Positions 6,790 to 63,887 of a stretch of DNA of 64,000 nt are shown here, piece by piece. A model generated the notes under the pieces. That model ran no database searches. It had not been told where the DNA came from and worked only from the letters and a program-made list of their open reading frames with translations. The DNA comes from Bursaphelenchus xylophilus (taxonomy: Eukaryota > Nematoda > Chromadorea > Rhabditida > Aphelenchoididae). Positions within the stretch are counted from its first letter, which is position 1. Every line of letters starts with the position of its first letter. The DNA is taken from positions 6,572,001 to 6,636,000 of the forward strand of contig CAJFCV020000006.1 of assembly GCA_904066235.2 (NCBI GenBank), in the 5' to 3' direction. The position numbers and the translations under genes were made by a program.

Positions 6790-8676
6790 ATGGATCTGGA
6801 TCCCCATATTCTACAGGTCGAACCGCCCGAGGAAGTCCACAAATTATTCGGATGTTGTGTGGAATGGCCGGTTACGGTAATTTATAAAAACATACTGTTA
6901 GATTACCTAAAATTTTAAGAAAAGCGCGAGACTGGTAGCTTATATTTCTCTGATCTCAGCCATTTGTAACTTGGTTATCATGATCCTCGCTCAGAACGAG
7001 GCCTCTTTCAGCATTGCAATTGATGTTTTCTTCCTAATCATCGAGTTCTCATGCGTTCTTTCTTTATTTTATGGAATAAACAGAAAGAAAGCTGGACCTC
7101 TGAAGCCTTTTATCATTTGCGGTGTAAGTTACAGTAATCTATTGTCGAAATTCCCGTGTCCTTCCATTATATGAACCATTACGGGCGATGCCATAAAGGC
7201 CAGACCATTATTGGCAAATTCTTAAAATCTTCGCAAAATGTCCTCAACACAGTCTTTATCTTCATGGAAAGGTTTATGTTCTGATTTTTACTTCTTTTCT
7301 TACAAGGAAAGTACTTTTATGGGGGCTCCTACTTTTTGACGGCACATATCTCAAAAAATCAGAAAAAATGTGCTGATCAAGGATATATAAATCTTAGCTG
7401 CCCATTTTAGGCTTTTATGGGTGAAAATGCCCAAAAACTGGCTTAATTTCCCTGCAAAAGGCGCGGGCATTCGAAACGATAAAAAGCGCAGTCGGTCTCT
7501 TCCTTCGGAAGAGAGCGGTGTGGCCGAGTGGTTAGTGCCGTAGCTTGGGAATCAAGAGGGAGGACGCCGCACGGGTTCGATTTCTCTTTTGGGCTGAATC
7601 AACAATTTTTGAAGTTGAAGGTCGGAAAAATAAATTTTTGGGCTAAGACTGATTTATTACGTCTTAGAAACTCAATAAACATCATTTTAAGCCAGAATAA
7701 AAATTGTAAACCTGTGAAAAATTAAGCGAAAAGGGATTTATATAGGACTTTAAGTCAACTTCCGATTGAGTTTTCACCCCTAAAATCCTAAAATGGGCAG
7801 CTAAGATTTATATATTCTTGATCAGCACATTTTTTCTGATTTTTTGGGATATGTCCCGTCAAAAAGTAGGAGCCCCCATAAAAGTACTTTCCTTGTTAAA
7901 AGCAGCACTATTAAAAAGTAATTTTAGGATTATTTTCTAAAAAATGGGGATTTTCGATGGTGATGATTGCGGAAATGACAAACATTTTTTGATTGCACGT
8001 TTTTTCTTAATTACGTTTTTACATTATTCTGCAACACAAAATGTAAAATTCAGACAAACTGAATGTTATTTTCGAAATCAGCACCATCGAAAGACCCATA
8101 AGTCGAGCATTCTTATTGTTAGAAAAAATTACAAAAATAAGTTTTTAACAGCACTGTTTAAGAAAAAAGTAAAAATCAGAAAATACATATTTCCTACAAA
8201 CACAAAGCAGCGTTGAGGATATTTGCAAGGATTTCAGAAATCTGCCCATAATGGACCGTTTCCGAAATTTCAGGTGATTTGGAATGCATTTTTGGTTCTT
8301 CTCCTGCTATTTTGTGTAATCCAACTATTCGATCAAGACAGATTTACCTCAGAAGTTCTACTTAATCTTTCGGAATTGCTCAACTTTTCTCCATCCAACG
8401 AATCCTCAGGTCAGGAAATAAGTTATTACCAATAGAGCATTAATTTTAGTCGGTTTCTGGATGTCCCTACTCTTGGTCATTTCATTGGCCTTAACGGCAG
8501 CCATGGGCATCTGGTTTCTTCACATTATCCTGACTACATACTACTATTTCGTCGACCGAAAAGAAGAAATCTGGAGGGAACAACCCGAAACTCGCCGTCT
8601 TCTTCAACCCGAATTCAATAATTTAATCATCCCGAATAGAAAGGAAAACATCCACAGCAAACAATTCAGATTATAG
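6790..8676 (+). CDS. Nematode four-transmembrane protein
   Basis: Exons 6790-6876, 6920-7123, 8274-8409 and 8450-8676 give 217 aa in one frame. Four hydrophobic helices are visible: one after LVAYISLISA, one around AIDVFFLIIEF, one spanning the exon 2/3 junction (FIICGVIWNAFLVLLLLF) and one near LLLVISLALTAAMG, followed by a charged cytosolic tail (YYYFVDRKEEIWREQPE). The continuous helix across the junction supports joining exon 2 to exon 3 directly, which leaves a 1,150-nt intron holding the foldback element at 7302-7896. The topology resembles the small four-TM proteins common in nematodes. The stop (8674-8676) lies inside the 3' end of the convergent ACBP gene. Biochemical role unknown. 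Confidence 0.75.
7302..7896. mobile_element. Foldback element P1 with tRNA-like core
   Basis: About 595 bp inside an intron of the four-TM gene. The left arm (about 7302-7435, starting ACAAGGAAAGTACTTTTATG) is repeated as an imperfect inverted arm at about 7775-7896. Between the arms lies a tRNA-like core (7511-7590). No transposase frame is present, so it is non-autonomous. I could not establish a target-site duplication. Confidence 0.8.
7511..7590 (+). ncRNA. tRNA-like core of foldback element P1
   Basis: It has an A-box match TGGCCGAGTGG at 7521-7531 and a B-box-like GGTTCGATTTC at 7574-7584, followed by a T4 run at 7587-7590 that would serve as a pol III terminator. The D-arm side is like tRNA-Ser/Leu. 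Acceptor and anticodon stems are only partly paired, so this is more likely a tRNA-derived pol III unit than a working tRNA gene. Confidence 0.6.
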
Positions 8677-12307: not shown

Positions 12308-12435
12308 TGTCTATTATACCTCCAAGAGGTTTTTAGACAGTTAATCCGTACTCTTCGGAGTACTCGAGGTATCATCGCTTTCGACAGCGGTGATAAGAGT
12401 ATCATCTATAATTGTATTGTATTTTTAGATTCGTC

Positions 12436-14043
12436 ATGGAATCCGTCCCGACAGAGCAGCCGATGGGGCCAGGCCAGCCTGAACAGCCCGCCGCCGGGTC
12501 CGACCCCGTTCTCAAGCTGTTCGACCGGACCTGCGATTCCATACTCATGGGACGTCCGAGTCCCGACGACGTCAGGAAGCTGCTGGTCATCATGGTCGAG
12601 GATTGCCGAAAGCTCGCCACTTATCTAGCCCGGGAGCAGCGGGCTCGCGCTCTTTCGGAAACCCGAACTGCGACGATGACAGGAAAAGCTGAAAAAGGAT
12701 TGGTTAATGTTTGCAAATCCCTCAACGACATTGACACGATGGATCTGGGACTGGGGATGTGGTCCTCAGTCGTAAACAAGGACCTCCGAGATCTGAAAGA
12801 TCAAGTTGGTGGCATCAAATCGCTTGGGAACGCGGTTGAAGCCAATAAGAAGGTTCTCAGATCAGTTCGAGACAAACTTGATCAAGTCGCCTGCCAGAAG
12901 GGCAACGATGTGGCCAGGTTCGAGAAGTTGGAAGAAAACATCGCTGGAATCAGAGGACTGTACGCTGAGCAAGGTAGGGTTCTTCGCGAACTTCGGGCTA
13001 CAGTTGAAACTTTAGCTGGGGGCGCCGCGCCAGCTCAATCAGAAGCTGTTGGTCCTCAAGAGCAACTGGATGATGCGACTCGTCCAAGTTATTCCTGGGA
13101 TGATGTGCCAATCGAGTTGGCTGGTGAATCAGGCGACCAACAAACCCATAATCCAGCGAATGCTCCAGAGGAAGAGCCACCGATCATAGCAAGTCTGGAG
13201 TGCAACTCCCTGCTCCAGCCGTTCAACCCAAATGGATCGATGACTTTTCAAGAATGGCTGGAGAAATTCGAGGATTTCCGAGATCAGCAAGCGACGCCCT
13301 GGACCAATGATGTAGCCGTCAAGAAGCTCCGAATGTTTTTGAATGGCGAGCCTCGGGAGAGGCTGATCAAAATTGCTCCAGCGACCGCGCCAGCTGAAGG
13401 TGGGAATCAGTTTAAAAATTTTGAAGAAATTAAGAGGGAATTGTTAGAATCCTTCAATAAGGATGGAGGACAAGCAATTGCGAGAGCCGAATTGACTGTC
13501 TTGAGACAGCAACATGACGAGTCAGTTAATGCCTTTCTTCAGCGGCTCAAACGACTGGTTGCCCGACTTGACCCCGATATACCAGCTCCGATTCGGGAGA
13601 AGAGAGTGTTCGAGGAATTTATGTCACGTGTCCGTGATGACATTGCTAACCCGCTTCGACTGGCCGTGCCTGAAAACCTCGAGCAAGCCCGAGCTAAGGC
13701 CTTGGCCATCGAATCCGTCAATGCATCCAGCCGACTGCTTTCGAGGGACTCTATGGCGAATGGCTTCGCCACTATGGTGCAAGCTCTTGCTGGTGTCAAT
13801 GCCAATGGTAATAACAACAGCCCGAAAAAGGGCGCATGTTTCTATTGTGGGATAGAAGGGCACTTTTCTAGAGAATGCCGACAGAGGGCCCGAGAAGTTC
13901 AACAGGGTCAGGCCGCTTTTTACCGCCCCAGCGGCGGTCAGCATCGAGCAGGTGGCTTTCGGAGGCCGCCGAACCGTGAACGAGCATCGTCTTGGTGGAA
14001 TGATGAAGAAGACCGAAGTCCCAGGGAGTCGGTGACCTGTTGA
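12436..14043 (+). CDS. Gag polyprotein of the LTR element
   Basis: 535 aa, intact, ATG at 12436. The first 200 residues are helical and coiled-coil-like. Residues about 270-440 form a retrotransposon Gag domain (MTFQEWLEKFEDF, VKKLRMFLNGEPRE, LRQQHDESVNAFLQRLKRLV). Near residue 475 is one zinc knuckle, CFYCGIEGHFSREC, of the C-x2-C-x4-H-x4-C type, followed by an Arg-rich tail. It would form the capsid and bind the RNA genome. The frame ends at 14043 and overlaps the next frame by 4 nt in the -1 phase, where pol would normally be reached. Confidence 0.93.
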   Translation: MESVPTEQPMGPGQPEQPAAGSDPVLKLFDRTCDSILMGRPSPDDVRKLLVIMVEDCRKLATYLAREQRARALSETRTATMTGKAEKGLVNVCKSLNDIDTMDLGLGMWSSVVNKDLRDLKDQVGGIKSLGNAVEANKKVLRSVRDKLDQVACQKGNDVARFEKLEENIAGIRGLYAEQGRVLRELRATVETLAGGAAPAQSEAVGPQEQLDDATRPSYSWDDVPIELAGESGDQQTHNPANAPEEEPPIIASLECNSLLQPFNPNGSMTFQEWLEKFEDFRDQQATPWTNDVAVKKLRMFLNGEPRERLIKIAPATAPAEGGNQFKNFEEIKRELLESFNKDGGQAIARAELTVLRQQHDESVNAFLQRLKRLVARLDPDIPAPIREKRVFEEFMSRVRDDIANPLRLAVPENLEQARAKALAIESVNASSRLLSRDSMANGFATMVQALAGVNANGNNNSPKKGACFYCGIEGHFSRECRQRAREVQQGQAAFYRPSGGQHRAGGFRRPPNRERASSWWNDEEDRSPRESVTC

Positions 14044-15458
14044 CGGTTCAAGAAGCTCCCGAGAAGGAAGATCAGGTGGTGGAAAAGACCGAGAGGGAGA
14101 AGTCCCTTGAGTTGATGAGACAAAAGCATGCCAACCTTCTGAAGCTTCATTCCTCCTCATCGATTCAATCTCTACACCCGGTGAATGCCCTTGCATCGGT
14201 GATGTTTTTGGTCACCTGTCTAACTGTGGTCTCTCCTTCAGTAGGAGCGATCCAACCGATGATATGTCAGCATCAATTTGGCAGAAGACTCGTTGGATTG
14301 CCCGAGCCTCCAGAATGCCCACAAGTCAATGTCAAGCCAAAAGTTCGTCCGGCAACGCTTCTACTGGATATTTTTCGAGAGAATGAGCAAGTAAGTGAAA
14401 CGCCAGCTGAAGTATGTCAAGTGGTTCGGAGCCAAATTCGCTACTTCACGACGCTTTCAGGGGTTTATGTGGAGCAGCCAGCCAAGCCCATTAAGGAACT
14501 GGTCACGCCTGCGCAGTGTCGAGACATCCTGAGATCCAGGAGGTGTATTCATGGATCTCTGACTCCACAGAAGGACGGCTGGGCCACGTCCAACGTCTTC
14601 AAGAAGGACAGACCCTGGCCTTTCTTCGGAAGTTTTGGTTGGAAGTCCCAAACACTCAGGAATTGTATCACTTTTGGGGCTCATGTTCAGTACAACTCGA
14701 ACTCGCACGTATTGACGGCAACGGCCGGTGATCTTCAAGCATGCAACTACACTTCTGGAGAATGCAACCTCCAAGATGGATCAGCCATTCTCTGGAAGCC
14801 GAATCCTGCCCTGGATTGCCCTTTCATCAAGGTTGGTACGTTCTTGGGTCGTTTGTTAGGAAATGTTTGGCTCTCTGACAGCCGACAATTTGCATTAACT
14901 ATCAGCAATGACTCTGTGCCGTTTAAGTCATGCAACAAGACGCTGGTCAAGACTCCCCAAGGTTTCGCTATCCCGCTGAGCGCAGCCCGCGCAAAAAGGG
15001 GAACTAAGGTGGTCGCTAGCAACACATTGTCTGCCGAGCTACAAGGGCTGGAAGAAAGCATGATCCAGATCATTCAGCATAATTTCGAGAATGTTATGCA
15101 CCACATTTGCTTCGCCCACCAGAGCGCAGCCGCGCAATGGAAACTTTTGGCCGAGACGAACCCTACAGCTGTATTTCGTAAGTTATTACGAGATGATTAT
15201 ATTCATGCCACGATGCTCACTGAAAGCATAGCTGAGATCTACCCTTGTAGACCGATCGGAAAAGAGTCTATTCGACCAAGACCCGGTCCAAAAACCGGAT
15301 GCACCCGCTATATTCCCATAGACCTCACTGACCCCACCGACTCCTCGAAGTCGAAAGGGGCATTTTTGGACCCGATGACTGCCATTATCACTGAGAAGGC
15401 GGCTCAAAACCAGACGACGAGGGTTTCTTTGTTGAAACTCGAAGCCCAACCTTGTTGA
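14040..15458 (+). CDS. Envelope-like glycoprotein, ectodomain
   Basis: The open frame is entered in the -1 phase at the gag stop; the first ATG is at 14115. About 25 residues after it is a hydrophobic signal segment (ASVMFLVTCLTVVSPSVGA). About 390 residues follow with many cysteines, several N-glycosylation sites (NYTS, NDS, NKT) and a furin-like RAKR site near residue 320. There is no membrane anchor in this frame: the anchor is in the overlapping frame at 15452. The closest guess is a glycoprotein acquired by a retroelement, as in errantiviruses or elements carrying chuvirus-like glycoproteins; I cannot decide the fusion class. Host tissue and activity unknown. Confidence 0.75.
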   Translation: MTVQEAPEKEDQVVEKTEREKSLELMRQKHANLLKLHSSSSIQSLHPVNALASVMFLVTCLTVVSPSVGAIQPMICQHQFGRRLVGLPEPPECPQVNVKPKVRPATLLLDIFRENEQVSETPAEVCQVVRSQIRYFTTLSGVYVEQPAKPIKELVTPAQCRDILRSRRCIHGSLTPQKDGWATSNVFKKDRPWPFFGSFGWKSQTLRNCITFGAHVQYNSNSHVLTATAGDLQACNYTSGECNLQDGSAILWKPNPALDCPFIKVGTFLGRLLGNVWLSDSRQFALTISNDSVPFKSCNKTLVKTPQGFAIPLSAARAKRGTKVVASNTLSAELQGLEESMIQIIQHNFENVMHHICFAHQSAAAQWKLLAETNPTAVFRKLLRDDYIHATMLTESIAEIYPCRPIGKESIRPRPGPKTGCTRYIPIDLTDPTDSSKSKGAFLDPMTAIITEKAAQNQTTRVSLLKLEAQPC

Positions 15459-23412: not shown

Positions 23413-26400
23413 ATGCCCCCTTTGGACGAGATCTCGGTTCAGACCTTCAACGATATCATCAGTGCTGGAGTCTCGTCGAAACTTGTCTATGGTGCGTCGC
23501 ATTTTAACCGTTTCTCATTCCCACTTTCAGAAGGTTCTGTTTGTGATGCATATCCTTGTTGGAATGATGGCGTTTGTGTGGAGTCCAACCTAACAGACAC
23601 AGGCTACTTCTGTATGTGCAACAAGTTCTTTTCGGGCGATCATTGTGATGTTCAGGTGAGCGCGGTCGTTGTTCCCGCAATCTTATATTGCAGGTATTCA
23701 ACAATTGCAGCAATATCGTATGTCCCCCGCGTGCTGTTTGTTTCTCTTCTACCTCATTATGTGCTCCAATCCGGGCTGCAAGTAAGGAAAAACATTTTTC
23801 GGTTGGTCAGTTCATAGACTGGACCTCGTTTCATGTCAAAAACATCCAAAACACACCCCATTTCAGAGACGTTCCCTCGATGCATCTTCGAGCCCTGCAG
23901 AAATGGCGGATCTTGTGTGATGTTCGAGAATGAGAGTCCTTATTGTATATGCCCGCCCAATTTCCATGGATTATTATGCGAATGTAAGTCGCCCGACCCA
24001 AAACAATGAAATGCGCTTACAGATTCGCATCGTGCCTCTTCTGAAGTCCCCATGAATTGGAATGTTCTCCAGCTTTTGATTCTATTCGGAGTCATGTTCT
24101 TATTGGCTTCCGCGTTCCTAACATTATGTTACAACGGGAATTATAGTTGTTATTTGAATTGGAAACGACGCTACAAATATGATAAATGGAGTATTGAGTC
24201 GGATTTCCAATGGTATGAATCAGATGAAGAAGAAGATCAAGATCTCATCAATGGAGGGAGTATCTATCATCCAGGTCATAATCTCAGTGCAACAGACACG
24301 TCGAAAAACTGCTTTGAACTAAAGTAAGTATCACTCTGTCGGGAAAATAATGTGTATTCGTCGCATTGGAATCCCCCATCATCGCTTCGCGTCGGCTAGC
24401 CGGGACTGGAGATTCGGATATTTTGAAAATCTTTTATTTTTTTTGTCGAGATCCCGTTCATTCTCAAGCCAAAAAGTCTTGACATGTCTGCACAGTACGC
24501 CGTCGTTCGAACAACTTGTCGCGCGGCGACAAGCAAAATTCACGGTGCGCTACGACCCCGCACCGTGCAAAAAGATTGTTTTGAAAAGGGTAAACACTGC
24601 ACAAAGCCCGCCTAGTATGTACAAATTATTAAATCCGCGTCCCGACATATCGGGTCAGGGACCACTCGAGTCGCGACAACTCGGGTTAGGGTTCGAAAAA
24701 TTCGGGTATATTCACCACGCGGGTATATACCCGGGTATATACCCGAAATCTCGGGTATATTCGGGTATTTATAAAATTAGCCTAAATTAGTCCAATATAG
24801 TACCAATATGAAGTCGTTAATGAATAAGTGGCAAGTTATTCATTAACCTAATCATGTTTGGAATGATTCTTTATTTTCCCAACTACAGGGTGTTCCTAGA
24901 ATTATGGAAACAACTATTCATTAATAACTTTGTGCTCGGTGGTCCAATCCAAAAAATTTTTTTTGCATCTTACAGGGAAACCTTTGAGTTTTTAGAATCA
25001 AGAAAAATTTTTCCTTTGATCGGCGGAGACTCCGGTAATCCTCCTTGAATTCGGCGGAGTGCTTTTTTCACAAACGAGACTGCAAATTGTTGTATGTGTG
25101 AAGTAAATGGGCGGGAGAGGATTCAATAGATACAATATGACATTTGTTTCAAATTTTTTTCATTCGGCGGAGACATTTTTTAACCTCGGCGGACGATTTT
25201 TCTTCGACTTTTGAGAGTCAAAATTGGCTAAAACCAAAACGTAGGTATTCCTGGTGGCATGGCGCCTAAATACGACTTATTACGTCTTCGGCCTACTGAG
25301 AGAAGAAAAAAAGGCAATTCGGCGGAGAAATCGGCGGAGAAAAAAATGAACCCATTTTACAGCCTCGTTTGTGAAAAAAGCACTCCGCCGAATTCAAGGC
25401 GGATTACGGAAGTCTCCGCCGATAAAACGAAACAATCTTTTTTGATTCTAAAAACTCCAAGGGTTTATTCAAAATGCAAAAAAAAATTTCGGATTGGACC
25501 ACCGAGCACAAAGTTACATTAACGAATAGTTTTTTTCCATAATTCTTGGAACACCCTGTACAACAAACAAAACTAGTACTTTAACAATCAAAAAGTTTAG
25601 CAATCCAATATTTGGCAGTCAGATTTTGAATTTTTTTCCGTTTATTTTCCTACTCCGGCCAAGTAAATTTCAACCTTACTAGGGAAGTGTACAAACGAAC
25701 CCTCACCAAATGGCAAGTGATATACACCATTTGAAAGCCCTTGAAAAATGGTGCAAGACACCATTTTCATTTTTTTGCAGAATGCCTTTCCGCGACGACA
25801 CACTGTAAATTATATTATTTTTAGGTCATTTCGCAACAAAAATCTTTCATTCTCTTCAGCGGATAAAAATCTTCGGAGGGGGTTGCTTCAATAGTGTAGT
25901 GGTTGCTGAGCAGGCTGATAAGCCAAAGCAAGCCGGGTTCAGTTCCCAGCTTGGGAAAAATCATTTTTGCGTTCTTACAGTTAGGAAAATACTTCCGTTA
26001 AACTTTTACAAACGCTTTAATTTTACTGGAAGACGGTCGGTTACGGTTAAAATAATCAAACTTACATGTTTTTCAACATCAAAAAAAGTGAAAAGTGGTT
26101 TTTCACATTATGGGTACTTAAAACCAGTAAATATCATAGGTAAAATGGTCTTACTAGCAAGCGCTAAACTTCATAATGATCCTTATGCTAACATAGTTGC
26201 ATTCCGTACCATTTAGCGTTTTGAAATAACATTTATTATGCCCCACAGCAGATATTGTAACTTTAAGGGACAAATCAACCGTTTATAATTTGTTGCCCTG
26301 AGGCATTCTGCAAAAAATGAAAATGGTGTCTTGCACCATTTTTTAAGGGCTTTCCAATGGTGTATAACACTTGCCATTTGGTGAGGGTTCGTTTGTACAC

Positions 26401-27468
26401 TTCCCTAGTTAGAACCAAGTTTTGAGAGGCAAAAAATAAATTATGACAAAATGTCAACATTTATTGATTTTTTATGACAAAACTCGACTTTTTTTACATT
26501 TTTTGAATACCCGAAAATTCCCGGCCTCTCGGGTATTTGGGTGTATACCCGGGAATATACCCCGGGTATATACCCCGTCCGAACCCTAACTCGGGCCAAC
26601 GACAGTTCGGGTCAACGATACGTTTAATATTTTCGCTTCGGGACTGGGAAAAAAGAATTTTTTGGTGAATTTGATAAGAAAAAAATTGAAATGTTTTCGC
26701 TTTATTTGCATACAATCATTACGACTATCTTCTTACTCCACTCTCTGGCATTGTCTGTGTTTAAATCCCGTGCTTCCAGTTAAAAACATAAACAATAGAG
26801 ACGATTTTCTTATTTGCTCGTCGCTTATGAACACTATTTTCCTAAAAAATTAAAAAATAATCCTCAATTCTCCAAAAAATCCTTTTTCCCAACTGCCGAA
26901 CCGAAAATATTAAACGGTATTGTTGACCCGAAATGTCGTTGACCCGACCTGTCGCGACCCGAGTTGGCCCTGACCCGAAACGCCGTAGCGCCGTTTAGCG
27001 TACTCTCTCGGCGGCAAAGATCGTTCAATATCTCGGGGGTTTCTGCAAAGCGCGAGCTAAAACTTTCAGGAATTGATACTTAGTCCATGCCCGACGTGTG
27101 TGCAAAATTTAAAGCAATTTTGAGTGTCGCTCCCTTGTCAGTGAAAAATTTTAAATTCTTACGATTGTTTAGCAAAAATCTACAAAAATTTGCCAAAAAA
27201 ATCTAACTTGACATCAAAATGAGAACAATTTGACTTGACGGAAATAACGGCAATTTGACAACATGACTGACGCGTCAAGTTGACGACTTACCAACGCTGT
27301 TACAAACTATAATATTAATTTTTTGTGCAGTTTATATTTTGATTTCTTTCCAGAAATAAACCGATGAGGGTCTCAACAACAGCAGAATCCTTCGTAACAT
27401 ATAGCGGGAGCAGTGGCGCGAATTCAGATTCTAATCACAGTGCCAATCCCGTTGATCTGAGCCAGTAG
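23413..27468 (+). CDS. EGF-repeat single-pass membrane protein
   Basis: Exons 23413-23491, 23531-23655, 23694-23781, 23867-23983, 24023-24323 and 27354-27468 give 274 codons in one frame. The ectodomain has an EGF-like repeat (CDAYPCWNDGVC, then CMCNKFFSGDHC), a short Cys-rich piece (NCSNIVCPPRAVC) and a second EGF repeat (CIFEPCRNGGSC, CICPPNFHGLLC). One helix follows (LLILFGVMFLLASAFLTLC), then a cytosolic tail with an acidic stretch (ESDEEEDQDL) and a Ser/Asn-rich end. The acceptor directly before the first ATG suggests that coding exons exist upstream. The last intron (24324-27353, 3,030 nt) holds a stack of nested mobile elements. Probably a surface adhesion or signalling protein; partner unknown. 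Confidence 0.8.
24886..25558. mobile_element. Palindromic TA-flanked MITE
   Basis: 673 bp. The ends CAGGGTGTTCCTAGAATTAT and, inverted, CAGGGTGTTCCAAGAATTAT are flanked by TA on both sides, the Tc1/mariner pattern. Arms are long and carry GGCGGAG motifs. No transposase. Confidence 0.85.
25679..26408. mobile_element. Foldback element P2 with tRNA-like core
   Basis: About 730 bp. The left arm (CTAGGGAAGTGTACAAACGA) is mirrored at the right end (TCGTTTGTACACTTCCCTAG), and pairing extends over about 110 bp, including GGTGCAAGACACCATTTTCA. The core at 25885-25968 is tRNA-like. It is the sister of element P3 (30666-31690), with very similar arms and core. Confidence 0.85.
25885..25968 (+). ncRNA. 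tRNA-like core of foldback element P2
   Basis: A-box TAGTGTAGTGG at 25892-25902 and B-box GGTTCAGTTCC at 25936-25946 are 44 bp apart, with a T5 run at 25964-25968. The middle GGCTGATAAGCC resembles a short anticodon arm. No full cloverleaf was found by eye. Confidence 0.6.
26998..27310. repeat. Fragments of two repeats
   Basis: 26998-27150 matches one arm of the element at 63214-63664 (CTCTCGGCGGCAAAGATCGT, AAAGCGCGAGCTAAAACTTT). About 27230-27300 matches, inverted, the TTAAGTCG-type repeat at 18229 and 45267. Confidence 0.7.
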
Positions 27469-30429: not shown

Positions 30430-32056
30430 TTAAGGTTTGTCAGTGAGATCAGTGGCGTCTTTTTTGGATGGGAATGGGTTCGGATTGGGCGGGGTAACGG
30501 CTGAGGGGGTGTCGCGGGATGGGGGAAGGTCGGTCCTCTCCAGTTTCGGGGGCTCCCTTTCTTTTCCCATCTCTTCCTCAGTCGATTTGCTTTCTTGTCT
30601 GGCCAGTAATTCTTTCATGGAAGCTCCAGAACTCTTTCTTCGAGCTGCAAAATAATCATAGCCTCACTAGTACAACCTAACCCTTACCAAATGACAAGCG
30701 ACATACACCACTGAAGAGACTTTGAAAGGTGATACAAGACACCATTCCCATTATTGCAGAATACCTCTCCGCGGCGCTATACCTCTCTTTTGCAAAAAAT
30801 CTTTCTTCCTCTTGGGCAGAAAACACCCCCGGAGATCTCCGGCCGGAGATGTTGCTTCAATAGTGCAGTGGTTGCTGAGCTGGCTGATAAGCCAAAACAA
30901 GTCGGGTTCAGTTCAACTTGGGCAAAAACGTTTTACTGTTAGGAAAATATTTTCGTTAAACATTTACAAAAGTTTTAATTTTGATGGAAAACGATCCATT
31001 ACGGTTACGACCAGAGATTGCCACGGCTCCGGAGCCGGCTCTTGGCTCCGGCTCGGAGCGGCTCCGGCTCCGAGCCGGGAGCCAGAGCTGGAGCCGGAAA
31101 TTTTGGGGTCGGCTCCGGCTCCCGAGCCCAAAGTCGGAGCCAGGCTTCCCAGCGGTCAGAAAAGTAAAAATTTCGTGATCTTGTTAAACCAAATTGCTTG
31201 AAAAACACTGCGGAGGATGTGACTTGACTGCAGAAACGTTGGCTGTATGATATCTGGCACTAATAACTTTTATTTTTGGAAAAATATTTTTAAAAAAACA
31301 TTTTGCATAGGAGCCGGGATTCGGAGCCGGAGGCCTTTTTAAATTTTGCACGGAGCCAAGAGCCGGAGCCGGCGCTTCAAATTTGGCCTCGGCTCCGGCT
31401 CTGGGAGCTAAGAGCCGGAGCCGACATTTTGACCGTGGCAATCTCTGGTTACGACCATCAAACTTACATGTCTTTCTAGATTAAAAAATTAAGTATTTTT
31501 TCACTTCATACAGAACCGATATTTCTATTCTGCCCCATATGAAATTTTGTAACCACTAAAGGTACAGAAATTTTTCGCCCTGAGGAATTCTGCAAAAATT
31601 GAAAGCACTTTCTAAAACTACTTTTCAAGGACTTTCGAACGGTATATAACACTTGTTACTTGGTAAAGGTCAGTTTGCACACTTCCCTAGCCAGAAAAAA
31701 TAAAACAAAGATAAGAACGATGAGAAAACGCTTCAACTTACCCCTTCGTCTCCTATTGGTTGGTGTGAAACTGGGAATCGCCTTCGTTTCGACGGTTTCA
31801 GGGTCACACTAAACTGACAAAAATAGAATTCAGCTTGCTTACTGTAGTCTCCAATTTTTTGGGCTCTTCTTTTTTGGACAAAAGCTTCGACGCCGATGAT
31901 TCTAAAGTAATTTAGAGTCTTCGTTCCATCATACAAATTCCTACCAGACATTCCTACAGCCCCAGATGAGCCTTCCGTACTCTGCGATGCCCCACCAAAC
32001 AGCCATGCCGTAATCGATGACGCCCAAACCAGGAAAATTAGAAAAAGAAAAAACAT
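30430..32056 (-). CDS. Small signal-peptide protein with charged tail (unrecognised)
   Basis: Exons 32056-31945, 31901-31843, 31808-31742 and 30644-30430 give 150 aa in one frame. It starts with a hydrophobic leader (MFFLFLIFLVWASSITAWLF). The rest is polar and probably disordered: Lys/Glu-rich (SKLLSKKEEPKK), a basic patch (NRRRR, ARRKSS), then Glu-rich and finally Pro/Ser/Thr-rich (SAVTPPNPNPFPSKK). No domain recognised. The leader may be a signal peptide or a membrane anchor. The 1,097-nt third intron is filled by foldback element P3. The stop is 8 nt from that of the convergent K2P gene, so the two mRNAs must overlap in their 3' ends. Confidence 0.7.
30857..30925 (+). ncRNA. tRNA-like core of foldback element P3
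   Basis: A-box TAGTGCAGTGG at 30861-30871 and B-box-like GGTTCAGTTCA at 30905-30915, 44 bp apart as in P2. The surrounding GTTGCTTCAATAGTG and GGCTGATAAGCC are shared with P2. Probably decayed. Confidence 0.55.
31012..31447. mobile_element. hAT-type MITE with GGAGCC-rich arms
   Basis: 436 bp with perfect inverted ends CAGAGATTGCCACGG and CCGTGGCAATCTCTG, and an exact 8-bp duplication GTTACGAC at 31004-31011 and 31448-31455. Inner arms repeat GGCTCCGGCTC-like units. It was inserted into foldback element P3. A decayed relative lies at 46305-46600. Confidence 0.93.
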
Positions 32057-36867: not shown

Positions 36868-37919
36868 ACAAGGGATCGGCAAATATTTGCACCCTGCTTT
36901 CTTAACGAAACCTATATCATTTAAAAGAGCATTAAAAATAGTGCACAGCGCAAAAAAAATTAGCTGCCCAATATATGTTTGGGCAAAGTCATGGCTAAAA
37001 TACGTATTTTAGCTTTTAGCCTAATTTCCGCGGCAATTTATAAGCTCTTGGAACGACGGTAGAGCTGTGTCTAGTTGGCCGAGTGGTAGTGACCCCACTT
37101 CCGGCGAAACAGGTTCTGGTTTCGAATCCGGGCTCTGCAATGTTTTTTGCATTTCGTCTCTCATATGCCACAAAACCATGGTATGTTGATATTTTTAAAT
37201 AATTTTTGTTCCTTCGCAGTCAAAATACATTTTTACTGGATTTTTTCGAGTTTTCGGTTTTTTTTGCAATCACCACAAATTTGATGGTGATGAGAGTGGG
37301 GATGCCTATCGTATAATTACAAGGGTGTCATGCCTTTAGCCTGATTGATTATGATTACTGGACGATAATTCAATTTACAAGGGCCTATAAATATAATTTT
37401 TTCCAAAAAAATACGAAGATAAAATTACAAAAGCGGCTAAAACACTATTGCTGACACAGTGGCCTAACCGTCGGTAAGGCTAGGACATAAGAAATTTTTG
37501 ATTTTGAGATTTTTGTTTGTAAATGGCCACGACGATCATACAAATGTATTTCCAAAGTTTTTTGCTCCAGTTTTCCCATTAACCTAGTTTTATTTACAAT
37601 TTTTTGTAAATGGCAGTAATGCGACATTATAATGTCTAATAACTCATAGCCAACGATTGATAAAGCCATGAAACGACCGTGATAGACGTTTCGGGATACT
37701 AGTAAGACAATGGAGACAATTGCAATCCGTCAGGATTACTCTAATATGAGAAACCGGCGTTTTGGCCGCATATAACCCCTATCATAAAACGGCCATAACT
37801 TTGCCCAAACATATATTGGGTAGCTAATTTTTCTTGTGTTGTACACTATTTTTAATGCTCTTTCAAACGGTATATGTTTCGTTAAGAAAGCAGGGTGCAA
37901 CTATTTGCCGATCCCTTGT
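36868..37919. mobile_element. Foldback element P4 with tRNA-like core
   Basis: About 1,052 bp. The left arm (from ACAAGGGATCGGCAAATA) is mirrored at the right end (TATTTGCCGATCCCTTGT with small gaps); arms pair over about 145 bp, including CCCAATATATGTTTGGGCAA. The core 37059-37139 is the best tRNA-like unit in the window. There is no transposase frame. It lies between genes. Confidence 0.85.
37059..37139 (+). ncRNA. tRNA-like core of foldback element P4
   Basis: Acceptor strands GTAGAGC and GCTCTGC pair; A-box TGGCCGAGTGG is at 37076-37086 and B-box-like GGTTTCGAATCC at 37118-37129, with a T6 run at about 37142-37147. The T-arm (CTGG, TTTCGAA, TCCGG) is well formed. The anticodon arm is weak. 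It may be a tRNA-derived pol III unit or a pseudo-tRNA. Confidence 0.65.
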
Positions 37920-38658: not shown

Positions 38659-40599
38659 ATGGGTTTCTCTACCAAACCTCTGATTATTGACGCTAAGGAT
38701 CATATCCTCGGTCGTCTTGCCTCCACAGTGGCGAAGCAGCTTTTGCTCGGCCAGAAGATTATTGTTGTGCGATGTGAAGAGATCAACATTGCCGGAAACT
38801 TCCACCGTTGCAAGCTGAAGTATCTTTCCTTCCTCAGAAAGCACTGTAATGTGAAGCCATCCCGAGGACCCTTCCACAAGAGAGCCCCATGCAAGATCTT
38901 CTACCGCACCGTTCGCGGCATGATTCCTCACAAAACCCCTCGAGGTATGGCTGCCTTGAAGAACCTGAAAACCTTCGACGGAATTCCACAGCCTTATGAC
39001 ACCAAGCAGAGAGTGGTTCTCCCTTCAGCTGTCCGACACATCGCCTTGAAGCCTCGTCGCAAATTCAGCACCGGTAAGTCGTTCTTATCTTTGATTTTAG
39101 TATTTAGATGCTTTGATATTTGGAATACATCTCATAGTCAGGGGTGGTCAGCGGACCCTATTTTTCCGATTTTCGGCCCGCGGCCCGGCCCGTCTAGTCT
39201 TTTTCCAGGCCCTGCCCGTGACGGGCCTGGCCCGGCCCGGCCCGTGCAGGCCCGTCTATAGAGGGTTCTGCGAACTGCGCCCAGGCTCGGGATCTAAACT
39301 GAGGCAAAAAAGGCGTTGATCTAGCTAGTAAAGGATCAATGTGATAGTTTTGTGGTTCTATAATGGAACTATAGACTTGTAAACGTTTTAGAACTTGAGA
39401 AACAGCAACTATAACAACATAAATTAATTTTCCCGGCGCGAAAACAATGAATGCCAACAGTTTGGCATTGTATTTTAGACGGGCCGGGCCGGAAAAAAAC
39501 CCAGGCCCGCGGCCCGGCCCGTTTGTCAATCTCCATTTTTGAGGCCGGCCGGCCCGTTTGGGCCGGCCCGGCCCGCTGACCACCCCTGCTCATAGTAACT
39601 CTTAAAAAACATTATGTTAACCATTTTTTGGAGCAGGAAAATACTGGGCAGAACTTGAGCAAACTGGCCCACTCTTAAAAAAAGACTAGAAGCTTGCGCC
39701 CGAACAATCCCGGTGCAAGAAATGTTACGATCAAGCTTGGGGTTAATTAGGTTAGCGCTTAGCAGGGGTGGTCAGTGGGCATTTTTCGGATTTCCGGCTC
39801 GTTAAAAGACCGGCCCGTCTTTTCTTTTCTAGGCTTGGCCAGTTTTGGGCGCGAGGTGTCGGATTTTATTGGAAAAAGTTGCTTTATAGAGGTACTTTGC
39901 GAACTGCTCCCCAATCCTAGGTAATATAGGCGTTGATCTTGCTGGTACGCGATTAGTATACTAGTTTTGTGGTTTTTAAGGTACGTCTGAAGTATCTGGC
40001 GACTCATAAAGTTTTATACGGGGGCAATCAGTTGACAGGTTTCACCGTAGAAAATTGCTTTTACTGTTTTCTTTTTTGGTCTTGCTGCCTCTAAAGTGTC
40101 AAAAAAAGTTATGAACTATAATACCTTATTTCAGATTTCTGTTTTTTGAAGAAATTTCAAATAGTGCTACATAGGGATATTTCTCAACCTTAAACGTCTT
40201 GCATTCTGTCGAATTTCACTCTGTACAATTTAGGTGAATTTTTGAGTAGGCCAGTTAGCGGTATTTTCCAAATACTAAAATATCGAGAAAGTTTGTTTCG
40301 TCTTTTCTTAGCCCGATTTTTTCCAGTGTTACTGCGTCAATGTTCGGTACAATATTTTTTTCTTTTTTGCGTTATATGGATTATAAGTGCTTATTTTTTC
40401 AGTTGGCCGATTGTCCCATGAGGTTGGATGGCAATACCAGGGAGTTATCGCCAAGCTTGAGGAGAAGAGAAAAGTCCGAAGTGCTGCTTTCTATGAGCAG
40501 AAGAAAGCCGAACTGAAATTGAGAGAGAAGGCTTCAGGAAATGTCGCCAAGAAGGTCGCCAAATACGACGAAATCTTGAAGCAGTACGGTCATGCCTAA
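38659..40599 (+). CDS. rpl-16: Ribosomal protein L13a (uL13)
   Basis: Two exons, 38659-39073 and 40403-40599, give 203 aa, the same length as animal L13a. It is a structural protein of the 60S subunit. Recognisable parts are the N-terminal core ([33 protein letters not shown]), [20 protein letters not shown] and the C-terminal helix ([20 protein letters not shown]). The start is preceded by a TTTCAG acceptor at 38647-38652, fitting trans-splicing. The 1,329-nt intron is long for a ribosomal protein gene here, because it holds an hAT MITE with an 8-bp duplication and a partial related copy. Confidence 0.97.
39139..39588. mobile_element. hAT-type MITE with GGCCCGGCCC-rich arms
   Basis: 450 bp with inverted ends CAGGGGTGGTCAGCGG and CCGCTGACCACCCCTG, and an exact 8-bp duplication CTCATAGT at 39131-39138 and 39589-39596. 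The arms are runs of GGCCCGGCCC, far more GC-rich than the surrounding DNA. Inside an intron of RPL13A. Confidence 0.95.
39762..39850. repeat. Truncated relative of the 39139-39588 MITE
   Basis: It begins CAGGGGTGGTCAGTGGGCAT and continues with TTTTTCGGATTTCCGG and GACCGGCCCGTC, like the left end of the intact copy 620 bp upstream. No right end found. Confidence 0.75.
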
Positions 40600-43645: not shown

Positions 43646-46600
43646 ATGGAAGTTCCGTTAGAATCAAGTAGGGCTAAGGACGAAAATTCTCCGCTTCATA
43701 ATGTAAGGCTGCCTTTTCTTGACATCTATGTGTTTAGGACATAATTTGGGGACGAGAAGGTGTTGATTTTTCGCTGCCAAAGGAATCGACTTCTCAGTTA
43801 TTTAAGAATGAGGAAACTTCACCTCAAGCAGAGAGTGCCATTCAGCAATGTGATGAACCCGGGGAGGAATCAGAAGGAGTTGTAAGTGACTAAAAGTTTG
43901 GGTTTGTTACTTACGTTTAGGCTGAAGAGTATGATCTTCGAACTGTTCTATTCTCGCAAGAGGTTGAGGCTGCTTTCTTCCAATCGCGACGGAAGATTTG
44001 TGGAGTTTCCGGGATTTTCAACATGGGGAATACCTGTTACATGAACTCAGCAGTGCAGGCATTAGCCCATTGTCCTCCATTGAGGGATTTCTTCTGTGTT
44101 TTGAGTGGAGGACCGAAGTTATCTGGAAGTTGTCCTCCAACCGATGCTATTGTCTCAGTGGCGTTTAGAGATTTGATGAATCGGTTATGGTCACCGACTA
44201 ATTCGAATGCCATTCGCCCAACCGTTTTCTTATTTGTAGGACATACACCAACCTTTGTTGTGTTACCTTCCACTGGTATGAATTTTACTTTCAGAGGATT
44301 AGAGAAAAATGCGCTCAGTTTCGAGGCTTTTCTCAACAAGATGCTCAAGAATTCATTCGGTGTTTCTTGGATGTGCTGCATCAAGAACTCAAGTATGAAA
44401 TGCCAAGGATTGAGAAAGATCCAACAAGACCCGGACATTCTCATTCATCTCTGAGTCATTCCAGCACAGAAGAGGAAAATATGGACAGTGGAATGAGTAC
44501 TGAGAATGTATGGTTTTACAACTTAATGTGTATACTGTGGCTTAATGTGTATACTTAATGTGTATACTGTGGCTTTTATTGCAAATTATATTTTTAGGAA
44601 TCCGTTTCCTCTGCAAATCAAGATTCCAAGGATAATCTAGTAGAAAAAGAAGGTGGGGTTTCTATGATGTGTCATGTTTCTGATTTAGAATTGAAAACGA
44701 AACCGCTTTATGAAAGCGTCGTCAATGTTGTATTCGACGGGCAGCTGGTTAGCACAGTAAAGTGCCTAACCTGTCAACACTTAAGTGAAACCAACGAAAC
44801 CTTTCAAGTGAGTCTTATGGTAATTTTTATTTGATGTTTTAGGATATATCGTTGAGTATTCCTTCAACAGAGCAATTGGAGAAGATGAGGGAAGCTTTTG
44901 ATGAACACAACAATGATGTCGGAAAGAGTAGGACGGGTGGAAATGAAGTTAGTTATGCCTACGTGAGTATAATTCGGCAAAATGGACAGATTGTTTGTTT
45001 TTTCAGTGGATATATGACTTGACTGCGCGGTGGTTAATCTGGCCGTGGTTCTCATGGATAAATTCATTTTATCGATATTTATTTACGGAATGTGTCTCTC
45101 TTGAGGATTGTCTCCGAGGATTCTTCGCGGCAGACTACCTTCGAGGAGAGGATATGTATAAATGTGAGAAGTGCAACAAGTAGGTCAATTTCTTTAATTT
45201 ATATGGTTATTTTAAGCGCAAAGAATGTAAGCCTAAAAATTTTTGATAAGGAAGTTTCAATTCATAAATAACTAGGGTTGTTAAGTCGTCAACTTGGCAC
45301 ATTGGTCACGTTGTCAAATTGGCGTCATTTTCGTCATGTCAAATTTTTCTGTCATTTTGATGCCAAGTTGAATTTTCTTGGAAATTTTTTTACATTTTTG
45401 TAAAAAAATAGTGAGAATTAATTTTAAAACAACATAAATCATAATTTGGTTTTTTGTTTGTTTTTTATTTTTACTGTCGTCTAATAAAAAGTATGAGATA
45501 AAACGACAGATTCTGGGGATTAAGGCGAAAAAAGAATCTTAACGTCCAAAAATAATTCGGGCCAAAAAATGGCGCGTCCTTTGGTGGATTCTGAACCAGA
45601 ATCTTATGCTGATTACAAGTATGAAATAAAATTGTTGCATTCGAGATTAAAAAAAGTACGATCGATTTTATTTACCATGTGATTTGGTATGTTACGACTA
45701 TCCTAACGCTTTAATTTTTTGCAATTTTGAATTCTGCAGCCTCTATAACCTTTGTATACAGGATCTCAATTAGTTTACTCCACTTCTGAAGTCACTAAAG
45801 CCATTATAAAGTCCAAAAAACGAGTATGTGAATGTGTGCCTTAAGGGCGCATTTGACAAAAATATTTTGGGGATGTGTTTTCGAGGGTTCTACCATCAAA
45901 GTCATATCCAAAAATTTAAAAAAAATTTTATAGTGCCAGTTAACCAAGGATCGTCTTTTTATAGCTGTGTATATTTATATATTTGGTATTTTTAGACTTC
46001 GCAACGGAGTCAAATTCTGCAAAATAAATGCCTTCCCGAATGTTTTATGCATACATCTGAAGAGGTTCCGGCACGACAGTTTATATAATAGTAAAATAAA
46101 CACAAGGATTACATTCCCGCTGGTGGATCTTGATCTAACTTCATTTATGGATCCAGATGCCGACGATCAAAAGAAATATGTCTACGATTTGCTATCGGTT
46201 GTTTCGCATCGTGGAAGTTCAGTCGATTGTAAGTTTTCTTCTTTATATACAGGGTGATTCAAAAAAAGGACATATCCCTTCTTCGATTTTCCTTGGATTG
46301 GAACCAGAGATTGCCACGGCCAAAAACGTGCAATCTCTGGCGGCTCCGGAAACTTAACTGTTTCGGTTTTTTTGACTATATAAATGTGTGTTATTGAGCT
46401 TTCGTGGTTTTGTTAGAAAACAATGACACGATTTGAAAATAACCAATAACATTACGAACGTTTTTGAGCCAAGTCGTACGCAACACATTCTCCTCAGTAT
46501 TTTGAAAGCAATTGGTTTAACAAGATCACGAAATTTTTACTTTTCCGAACGCTGAGAAGCCCGGCTCCGACTTTGGGCTCCGGAGCCGTTGCAACCTCTG

Positions 46601-63213: not shown

Positions 63214-63664
63214 ACAAGGGAAGTACTTGAAGTGTGACGCTCAGATTTTGATGAAACTTGGCACAAATTTAGAATAATTTTTTCTAAGATATATGCGGGA
63301 ATCCTAGCTCGCGCTTTGCAGAAACAACCAAGATTTTTAGATCGAAAGTCGGCGAAAATTTGGGACTTTTTGCCGAATTTCGGCACGAAAAGTTTCATGC
63401 CTATTTCAACCGTAAAGAATAATGTTTCTACAAAAAATCAAATTTTTCCGCACGAAACTGCCAAAGTTATGGCCAAAAAGCGGTTTTCTCTCTGACCGCT
63501 CTCCACGTTGAGCGTGCTCTCTCGGCGGCAAAAATCGTTCAATATCTCGGCGGCGCCCGCAAAGCGCGAGCTAAAACTTTCAGGAATTGATATTTAGTCC
63601 ATACCCGATGTGTGTGCAAAATTTAAAGAAAATCTGAGCGTCACACTTGAAGTACTTCCCCTGT
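63214..63664. repeat. Foldback element P5, no tRNA-like core seen
   Basis: 451 bp with ends ACAAGGGAAGTACTTGAAGT and, inverted, ACAGGGGAAGTACTTCAAGT; arms pair over about 100 bp (GTGACGCTCAGATTTT). The ends are like those of P1. No A-box/B-box pair was found in the middle. A second copy's arm is at 26998-27150. Confidence 0.8.
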
Positions 63665-63694: not shown

Positions 63695-63740
63695 TATTTT
63701 TACAAGGGATCGGAAATACTGCCATCAGGGTTCTTAGCGA
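63695..63740. repeat. Possible single arm of a P4-like element
   Basis: ACAAGGGATCGGAAATACTG resembles the left end of P4 (36868). Similarity fades after about 40 bp and no partner arm is present before the window ends. Confidence 0.4.
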
Positions 63741-63887
63741 ATCACTTGCGGCCGAAGCGCCAGTTTCTTACGTCACAGTAAAAGTTATCGTCCAGTGATT
63801 ATAATTGGTCAGGACGCTGGCACGGCACCCGCGTGATTATACATGAATGGATATTATTTTTATTCCATTTTAAGCTTTTTTGCTCAG

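Follow-up and report, generated by a model that had tools for sequence, protein, structure and literature searches.

The locus at 36868-37919 of the analysed window, a stretch of 64,000 nucleotides of the Bursaphelenchus xylophilus genome (C6:6572001-6636000; genome size 78.25 Mb), raises the question of how a promoter of the tRNA-gene type comes to lie inside a long palindrome. A first-pass annotation had described four foldbacks of one plan, with inverted arms around a tRNA-like core, and this plan is confirmed. Four foldbacks with tRNA-type box A and box B are present in the window, with one pair each and all on the same side (Table 1). The arms of the family 1 element (36868-36995/37792-37919) are 91% complementary, those of the family 2 element (7297-7427/7771-7901) 95%, and those of the family 3 element (25675-25775/26312-26412) 96%; for the element at 30666, the inverted-repeat tool gave just a 23-nt outer pair at 83%. 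Identical TNA duplications bound three of the four foldbacks (7303-7895, 25679-26408 and 36869-37918). Because the elements at 25679 and 30667 are related (73% identity), the four foldbacks are not independent of each other.

Table 1. Elements in the window and the promoter-like features inside them
Feature	Position	Strand	Remarks
Family 1 element (Tc4-type MITE)	36869..37918	+	TSD TGA, arms ~128 bp
Box A TGGCCGAGTGG of 36869-37918 element	37076..37086	+	offset +208
Box B GTTTCGAATCC of 36869-37918 element	37119..37129	+	1 mismatch
T run TTTTTT of 36869-37918 element	37143..37148	+	possible pol III stop
Family 2 element	7303..7895	+	TSD TTA; outer ~120 bp matches transposase-bearing L101/L104
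Box A TGGCCGAGTGG of 7303-7895 element	7521..7531	+	offset +219
Box B GGTTCGATTTC of 7303-7895 element	7574..7584	+	1 mismatch
T run TTTTT of 7303-7895 element	7606..7610	+	
Family 3 element	25679..26408	+	TSD TTA, ends CTAGGG
Box A TAGTGTAGTGG of 25679-26408 element	25892..25902	+	offset +214
Box B GGTTCAGTTCC of 25679-26408 element	25936..25946	+	1 mismatch
T run TTTTT of 25679-26408 element	25964..25968	+	
Eroded family 3 relative (73% identity to 25679 element)	30667..31690	+	flanks TCA/CCA, nested foldback inside
Box A TAGTGCAGTGG of 30667-31690 element	30861..30871	+	offset +195
Box B GGTTCAGTTCA of 30667-31690 element	30905..30915	+	2 mismatches
Tc4-type element without core	63215..63663	.	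TSD TTA, ends CA(A/G)GGGAAGTAC

Other features of the window include a GC-rich foldback at 31013-31447, which lies within the 30667 element and has matching counterparts near 46302-46600. At 63701-63842, a CAAGGGATCGG end is accompanied by two short pieces resembling family 1, probably what is left of an element that was truncated or has diverged. At 38659-39075, a frame for ribosomal protein L13a matches a Bursaphelenchus xylophilus protein at 100% identity, and two long frames at 12412-15458, one with a CCHC-like motif, have by eye the look of a retroelement.

The box pairs exceed what the composition of the window would produce on average. Box A was defined as TRGYNNARNGG and box B as GGTTCRANTCC, with an allowed gap of 30-65 bp, and the chance level was taken from 40 Markov-1 resamples of the window. 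With a perfect box A and at most one mismatch in box B, exactly three pairs occur in the window, all within foldbacks (resamples: average 0.0, maximum 0). When two mismatches are allowed in box B, there are four pairs, one per foldback (average 0.4, maximum 5), and one mismatch per box also gives four, three in foldbacks and one outside at 2390 (average 0.7, maximum 5). The DNA flanking other copies (177.6 kb) holds the strict pair five times: twice in one L081-like element (L016), once in a neighbouring family 2 copy (L032), once in a tRNA-Arg gene (L040; called by ARAGORN) and once in another foldback family (L056). A T run after box B, also reported at first pass, is present in all four window elements (4-6 T), but six-T runs turn up in 21% of 80-nt segments taken from the flanking DNA, so that T runs alone prove little.

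The description of the core as tRNA-like holds for its boxes and fails for its fold. ARAGORN called no core as a tRNA in the window, in three consensuses or in 111 loci, where its two calls were the tRNA-Arg of L040 and a tRNA-Pro of L002 that lies beyond the limits of the element; at E<=10, the Rfam tRNA model has no match in the window, L081, L101, L103, L104 or L105, and its matches in L102 sit in another foldback. A tRNA gene is therefore ruled out as an account of the core. Internal pol III promoters are a textbook trait of retroposed SINEs, and tRNA-derived SINEs, like the present elements, carry internal boxes A and B on a dispersed repeat. The present elements differ in having terminal inverted repeats, 3-bp TNA duplications and transposase-bearing relatives, and they are not retroposed; the inverted arms and the fixed 3-bp duplications rule out a SINE. 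That the core inserted later, making a duplication of its own, is likewise ruled out by its fixed offset in the copies and in transposase-bearing relatives, and the core belongs to the element, as had been proposed.

As a separate observation, a further long foldback, into which a T3 element has inserted, lies at ~2063-3792 of L102, and its outer repeats are near 428 and 3845. This foldback has a tRNA-like core in both arms, with Rfam tRNA scores of 32.2 and 28.2 bits, and L056 and L100 resemble this second foldback family by eye. A first look across the genome with the Rfam tRNA model gave 6207 candidates, of which 63 were scored, a number that would fit many tRNA-like cores.

The four window foldbacks are non-autonomous DNA transposons of the Tc4/Tc5 type. 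Element ends read CAAGG or CTAGG, the duplications are 3 bp of the form TNA, and the targets are mostly CTNAG. The first-pass annotation had suggested aligning the ends of collected copies to define the duplication; among copies with both ends found, TNA flanks occur in 27/29 of family 1, 28/29 of family 2, 18/19 of family 3 and 12/12 of family M4 (input 92 loci, with L013, L057 and L070 lacking a pair of ends by the search pattern). Among the TNA copies, the C before and the G after the duplication are present in 17 and 21 of 27 in family 1, in 14 and 15 of 18 in family 3 and in 10 and 12 of 12 in M4, against a background of 0.18 and 0.17; family 2 is a weak exception, with C before in 4/28 and G after in 11/28. 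The window MITEs encode no transposase themselves. A genome search with DDE_1 gave one match, in L081:466-3107 (2642 bp, TSD TTA, 333-bp arms at 100%), where two frames parted by a stop carry Tc5-type domains: Transp_Tc5_C at 49.2 bits and DDE_1 at 26.1 bits lie above the cut-off, and HTH_Tnp_Tc5 at 18.6 bits lies under its cut-off of 22.2. For the L101 transposase, the nearest public protein found is from C. remanei, at 38% identity.

Tc4/Tc5 transposons occur in nematodes, arthropods and tardigrades. In passages of one published account (PMC11071193), Tc4 is defined by its CTNAG target and TNA duplication, and the fold-back structure is credited to Yuan 1991. The present elements share with Tc4/Tc5 the TNA duplication within CTNAG, the Tc5-type transposase domains and the fold-back structure; they differ in the tRNA-type promoter in the arms, a feature of the Bursaphelenchus xylophilus elements that those passages do not mention for Tc4/Tc5. 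With MITEs, the window elements share short length, lack of coding capacity, high copy number and inverted ends common to a transposase-bearing element, and they differ in holding a conserved, predicted pol III promoter inside.

Searches with full-length queries scored 40 candidates each, out of 223 for family 1, 677 for family 2 and 156 for family 3; the best 40 of the family 1 candidates genome-wide include many full-length copies, at 83-98%. By a scripted count, the box pair is present in 28/30, 29/30 and 18/20 fetched loci of families 1, 2 and 3, counts that are biased because the queries were full-length and only some candidates were fetched, a bias that does not affect the transposase-only and arm-only tests. 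Of the five misses, L010, L057, L070 and L080 fail the end pattern and show the core in the alignment (with a 6-nt deletion in L080), and L015 is without the core. Box A of family 1 lies at +201 in 23/28 scored copies.

In the arm-only ascertainment, a search with 145 bp of an L081 arm, with 40 scored of 120 candidates, yielded family M4, sampled as 12 elements fetched whole and 6 single ends. Among M4 ends matching the end sequence (with L016), the boxes are at +200 in 30/30, although the pattern used for this count begins one base late; in L099, another M4 copy, the end is altered and the core is visible in the alignment. M4 and L081 are 97% identical over 120 bp and fall to background thereafter, with the boxes at +200/+255 and +199/+255, respectively. 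Family 2 and L101 show 95% identity, a break near +120, and boxes that are kept. A further arm-only search, for family 2 (40 scored of 740 candidates), is silent on core presence. As an observation on the arms themselves, T1 and M4, like T2 and M2, share 95-97% identity up to about +120, beyond which the likeness ends abruptly, a pattern that would fit modular ends or exchange of the inner part. Across the genome, the pattern CAAGGG N185-215 TRGYNNAGTGG N30-58 GGTTCRA has 302 matches, and its reversed control has 0. Among the 72 of these matches listed, there are 9 arm types and 16 inverted pairs, with box B at +238 to +260; the pattern itself admits box A only between +192 and +222, and matches of the pattern and of the families are not independent events, since the families share ancestry.

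Elements were also looked up by their transposase alone. This ascertainment gave 12 distinct loci, one of them under the family cut-off, and six were inspected with both ends (L081, L101-L105) and six at one end (L106-L111). In 11 of the 12, an inward-pointing box pair is present whose box A lies +199 to +202 from the end of the element, and five of the six elements fetched whole have it in both arms. L081, which was found by its transposase and not by boxes, shows boxes at +199/+255 in each of its arms; the core is deleted in one arm of L105, the arm is lost in L110, and L104 has, on one side, a box A candidate at +194 whose score equals that of the one at +202. The transposase-bearing arms form four families, T1 to T4, and the pairs of T2 and T4 have two mismatches in total. 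In resampled arms of the four families, a pair at +195 to +225 arose in 0, 0, 0 and 2 of 4000 trials. The core is no oddity of MITEs: the transposase-encoding relatives have the same predicted promoter in their inverted arms.

Across ten families, box A is followed by box B at a tRNA-like spacing of 43-56 bp with 0-2 mismatches in total, which is the arrangement of a type-2 pol III promoter. The arms that carry it mostly do not align. Over positions 1-120, 38 of 45 arm pairs lie at 0.54-0.70 identity (shuffled 0.63 ± 0.04), and the pairs over background are T1-M4 (0.97), T2-M2 (0.95), T1-T3 and M3-M6 (both 0.80), T3-M4 (0.78), T4-M1 (0.73) and T4-M5 (0.72). Short motifs also recur at set positions within otherwise unlike surroundings: TAGCTGC at +93 in T2, T4, M1 and M2 (+90 in M5), TGAAAGAG at +54 in T1, M4 and M1 (+51 in M5) and ATTTTTT at +266 in T2, T4 and M1. 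The transposase pieces of T1, T2 and T3 (T4 left out) are 34-41% identical, and the persistence of boxes, offset, TAGCTGC and ATTTTTT despite such divergence, with arms mostly at background, makes constraint likely.

What is observed is the anatomy of the elements, their target sites and the constant position of the boxes in arms that do not align. We infer that the core is a TFIIIC/pol III promoter module conserved in the inverted repeats of Tc4-type elements and retained because the element profits from TFIIIC binding, and we place the probability of this reading at roughly 0.6. Type-2 promoters are bound by TFIIIC at their boxes A and B. Such a promoter would be an inherited component of the Tc4-type terminal inverted repeats of Bursaphelenchus xylophilus, located in both arms of most complete elements and on one side in the four window MITEs. 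Its putative box A lies +199 to +202 from the end where the element bears a transposase and +195 to +219 from it in the MITEs examined, with box B 43-56 bp further inward. Host TFIIIC would bind these boxes and most likely hold the ends and the intervening transposase gene in open, insulated chromatin, and pol III may initiate a short RNA ending at the T run. The window MITEs were probably moved in trans by transposases recognising the outer ~120 bp, and the conserved entity would be the promoter module rather than a tRNA.

The short RNA could itself be the functional product, of ~85 or 145 nt according to the position of the T run, made from each arm and acting in transposition or in evasion of silencing, with TFIIIC binding serving its transcription alone. 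All four arm families T1-T4 have runs of 6-10 T within 80 bp after box B, and ATTTTTT stands at the common position +266 in T2, T4 and M1, families of unlike sequence. We nevertheless consider this unlikely, given the frequency of six-T runs by chance noted above (21% of 80-nt stretches), the lack of any tRNA fold called in the cores, and, in T1, T3 and M4, a TTTT lying between box A and box B that could stop pol III early.

Less probable still is passive inheritance, in which a tRNA gene was taken up by an ancestral Tc4-type element and persists as a functionless relic. Within three MITE families, the boxes are scarcely better conserved than the sequence around them, with ranks of 0.07, 0.02 and 0.45 for the box A windows and of 0.18, 0.43 and 0.84 for the box B windows; as to purifying selection within these families, only box A of family 2 stands out, and box B and family 3 do not. 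Such weak or absent constraint is expected of dead copies, yet it gives no support to the reading that TFIIIC binding benefits the element. Families without a core exist as well: Tc4-type elements with ends CA(A/G)GGGAAGTAC and no box pair are found at L009:828-1334 and at 63215-63663 of the window, so the core is dispensable for the spread of some copies. A mere relic is difficult to reconcile with boxes, spacing and offset that outlast the divergence of transposases and arms described above, and with boxes in 11/12 transposase loci.

Two further explanations are highly improbable. The motifs might be inner transposase-binding sites that are box-like by convergence, as their fixed offset from the end, beside the fixed motifs near +54 and +93, could suggest, but both match tRNA boxes, in order and at tRNA-like spacing, and in the window MITEs they occur on only one side. 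The palindromes are real, and the first-pass annotation had seen in them a possible source of dsRNA or siRNA, made when transcription enters an arm or reads the entire element; this idea is not upheld, because both promoters point inward in the matching arms of transposase-bearing elements, so that their transcripts would be alike rather than complementary in sequence, and T runs (6-10 T) follow.

The TFIIIC-binding promoter module proposed here would be unusual for its host element. To our knowledge, internal pol III promoters are not a textbook trait of cut-and-paste transposons, and a search of titles and abstract openings in the open-licence literature found no description of a DNA transposon whose arms contain a promoter of the tRNA type, in line with the earlier remark that such a class was unfamiliar. 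In sections of the genome paper of Kikuchi 2011 (PMC3164644), the assembly is given as ~22% repetitive and ~1.3% TE-like, with no mention in those sections of MITE, inverted repeat or Tc1; Tc4 and Tc5 are likewise unmentioned in sections of PMC7325037.

A parallel exists in C. elegans, which, according to portions of PMC6950938, has no CTCF. In the same portions, about half of the TFIIIC sites are without pol III and have both boxes present; 225 of these pol III-free sites (44.6%) overlap repeats, 214 of them CeRep3, and the extra-TFIIIC sites adjoin H3K9me3 borders (PMC6950938). The likeness lies in repeat-borne sequences with both boxes, suspected to be tRNA pseudogenes, which in C. elegans are TFIIIC-bound (PMC6950938). 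The two cases are complementary: for CeRep3, binding is measured and those portions tie it to no transposon class, whereas in Bursaphelenchus xylophilus the transposon class is known and binding is putative. By analogy, we think that Tc4-type arms may recruit TFIIIC as the C. elegans repeats do.

These sequences suggest that transposons of the pine wood nematode distribute docking sites for the machinery of tRNA genes across its genome. A wider proposal, tentative and rather doubtful, is that nematode Tc4-type terminal repeats in general hold a conserved TFIIIC-recruiting promoter, that their amplification seeded hundreds or more TFIIIC sites that now help to partition CTCF-less chromatin, and that the CeRep3 extra-TFIIIC sites have the same origin. 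On this view, other nematodes should have Tc4/Tc5 elements with a box A near +200, and transposon arms should be occupied by TFIIIC. If true, a whole group of DNA transposons would exploit the tRNA-gene machinery, and the dispersed TFIIIC sites of nematodes would have a concrete source.
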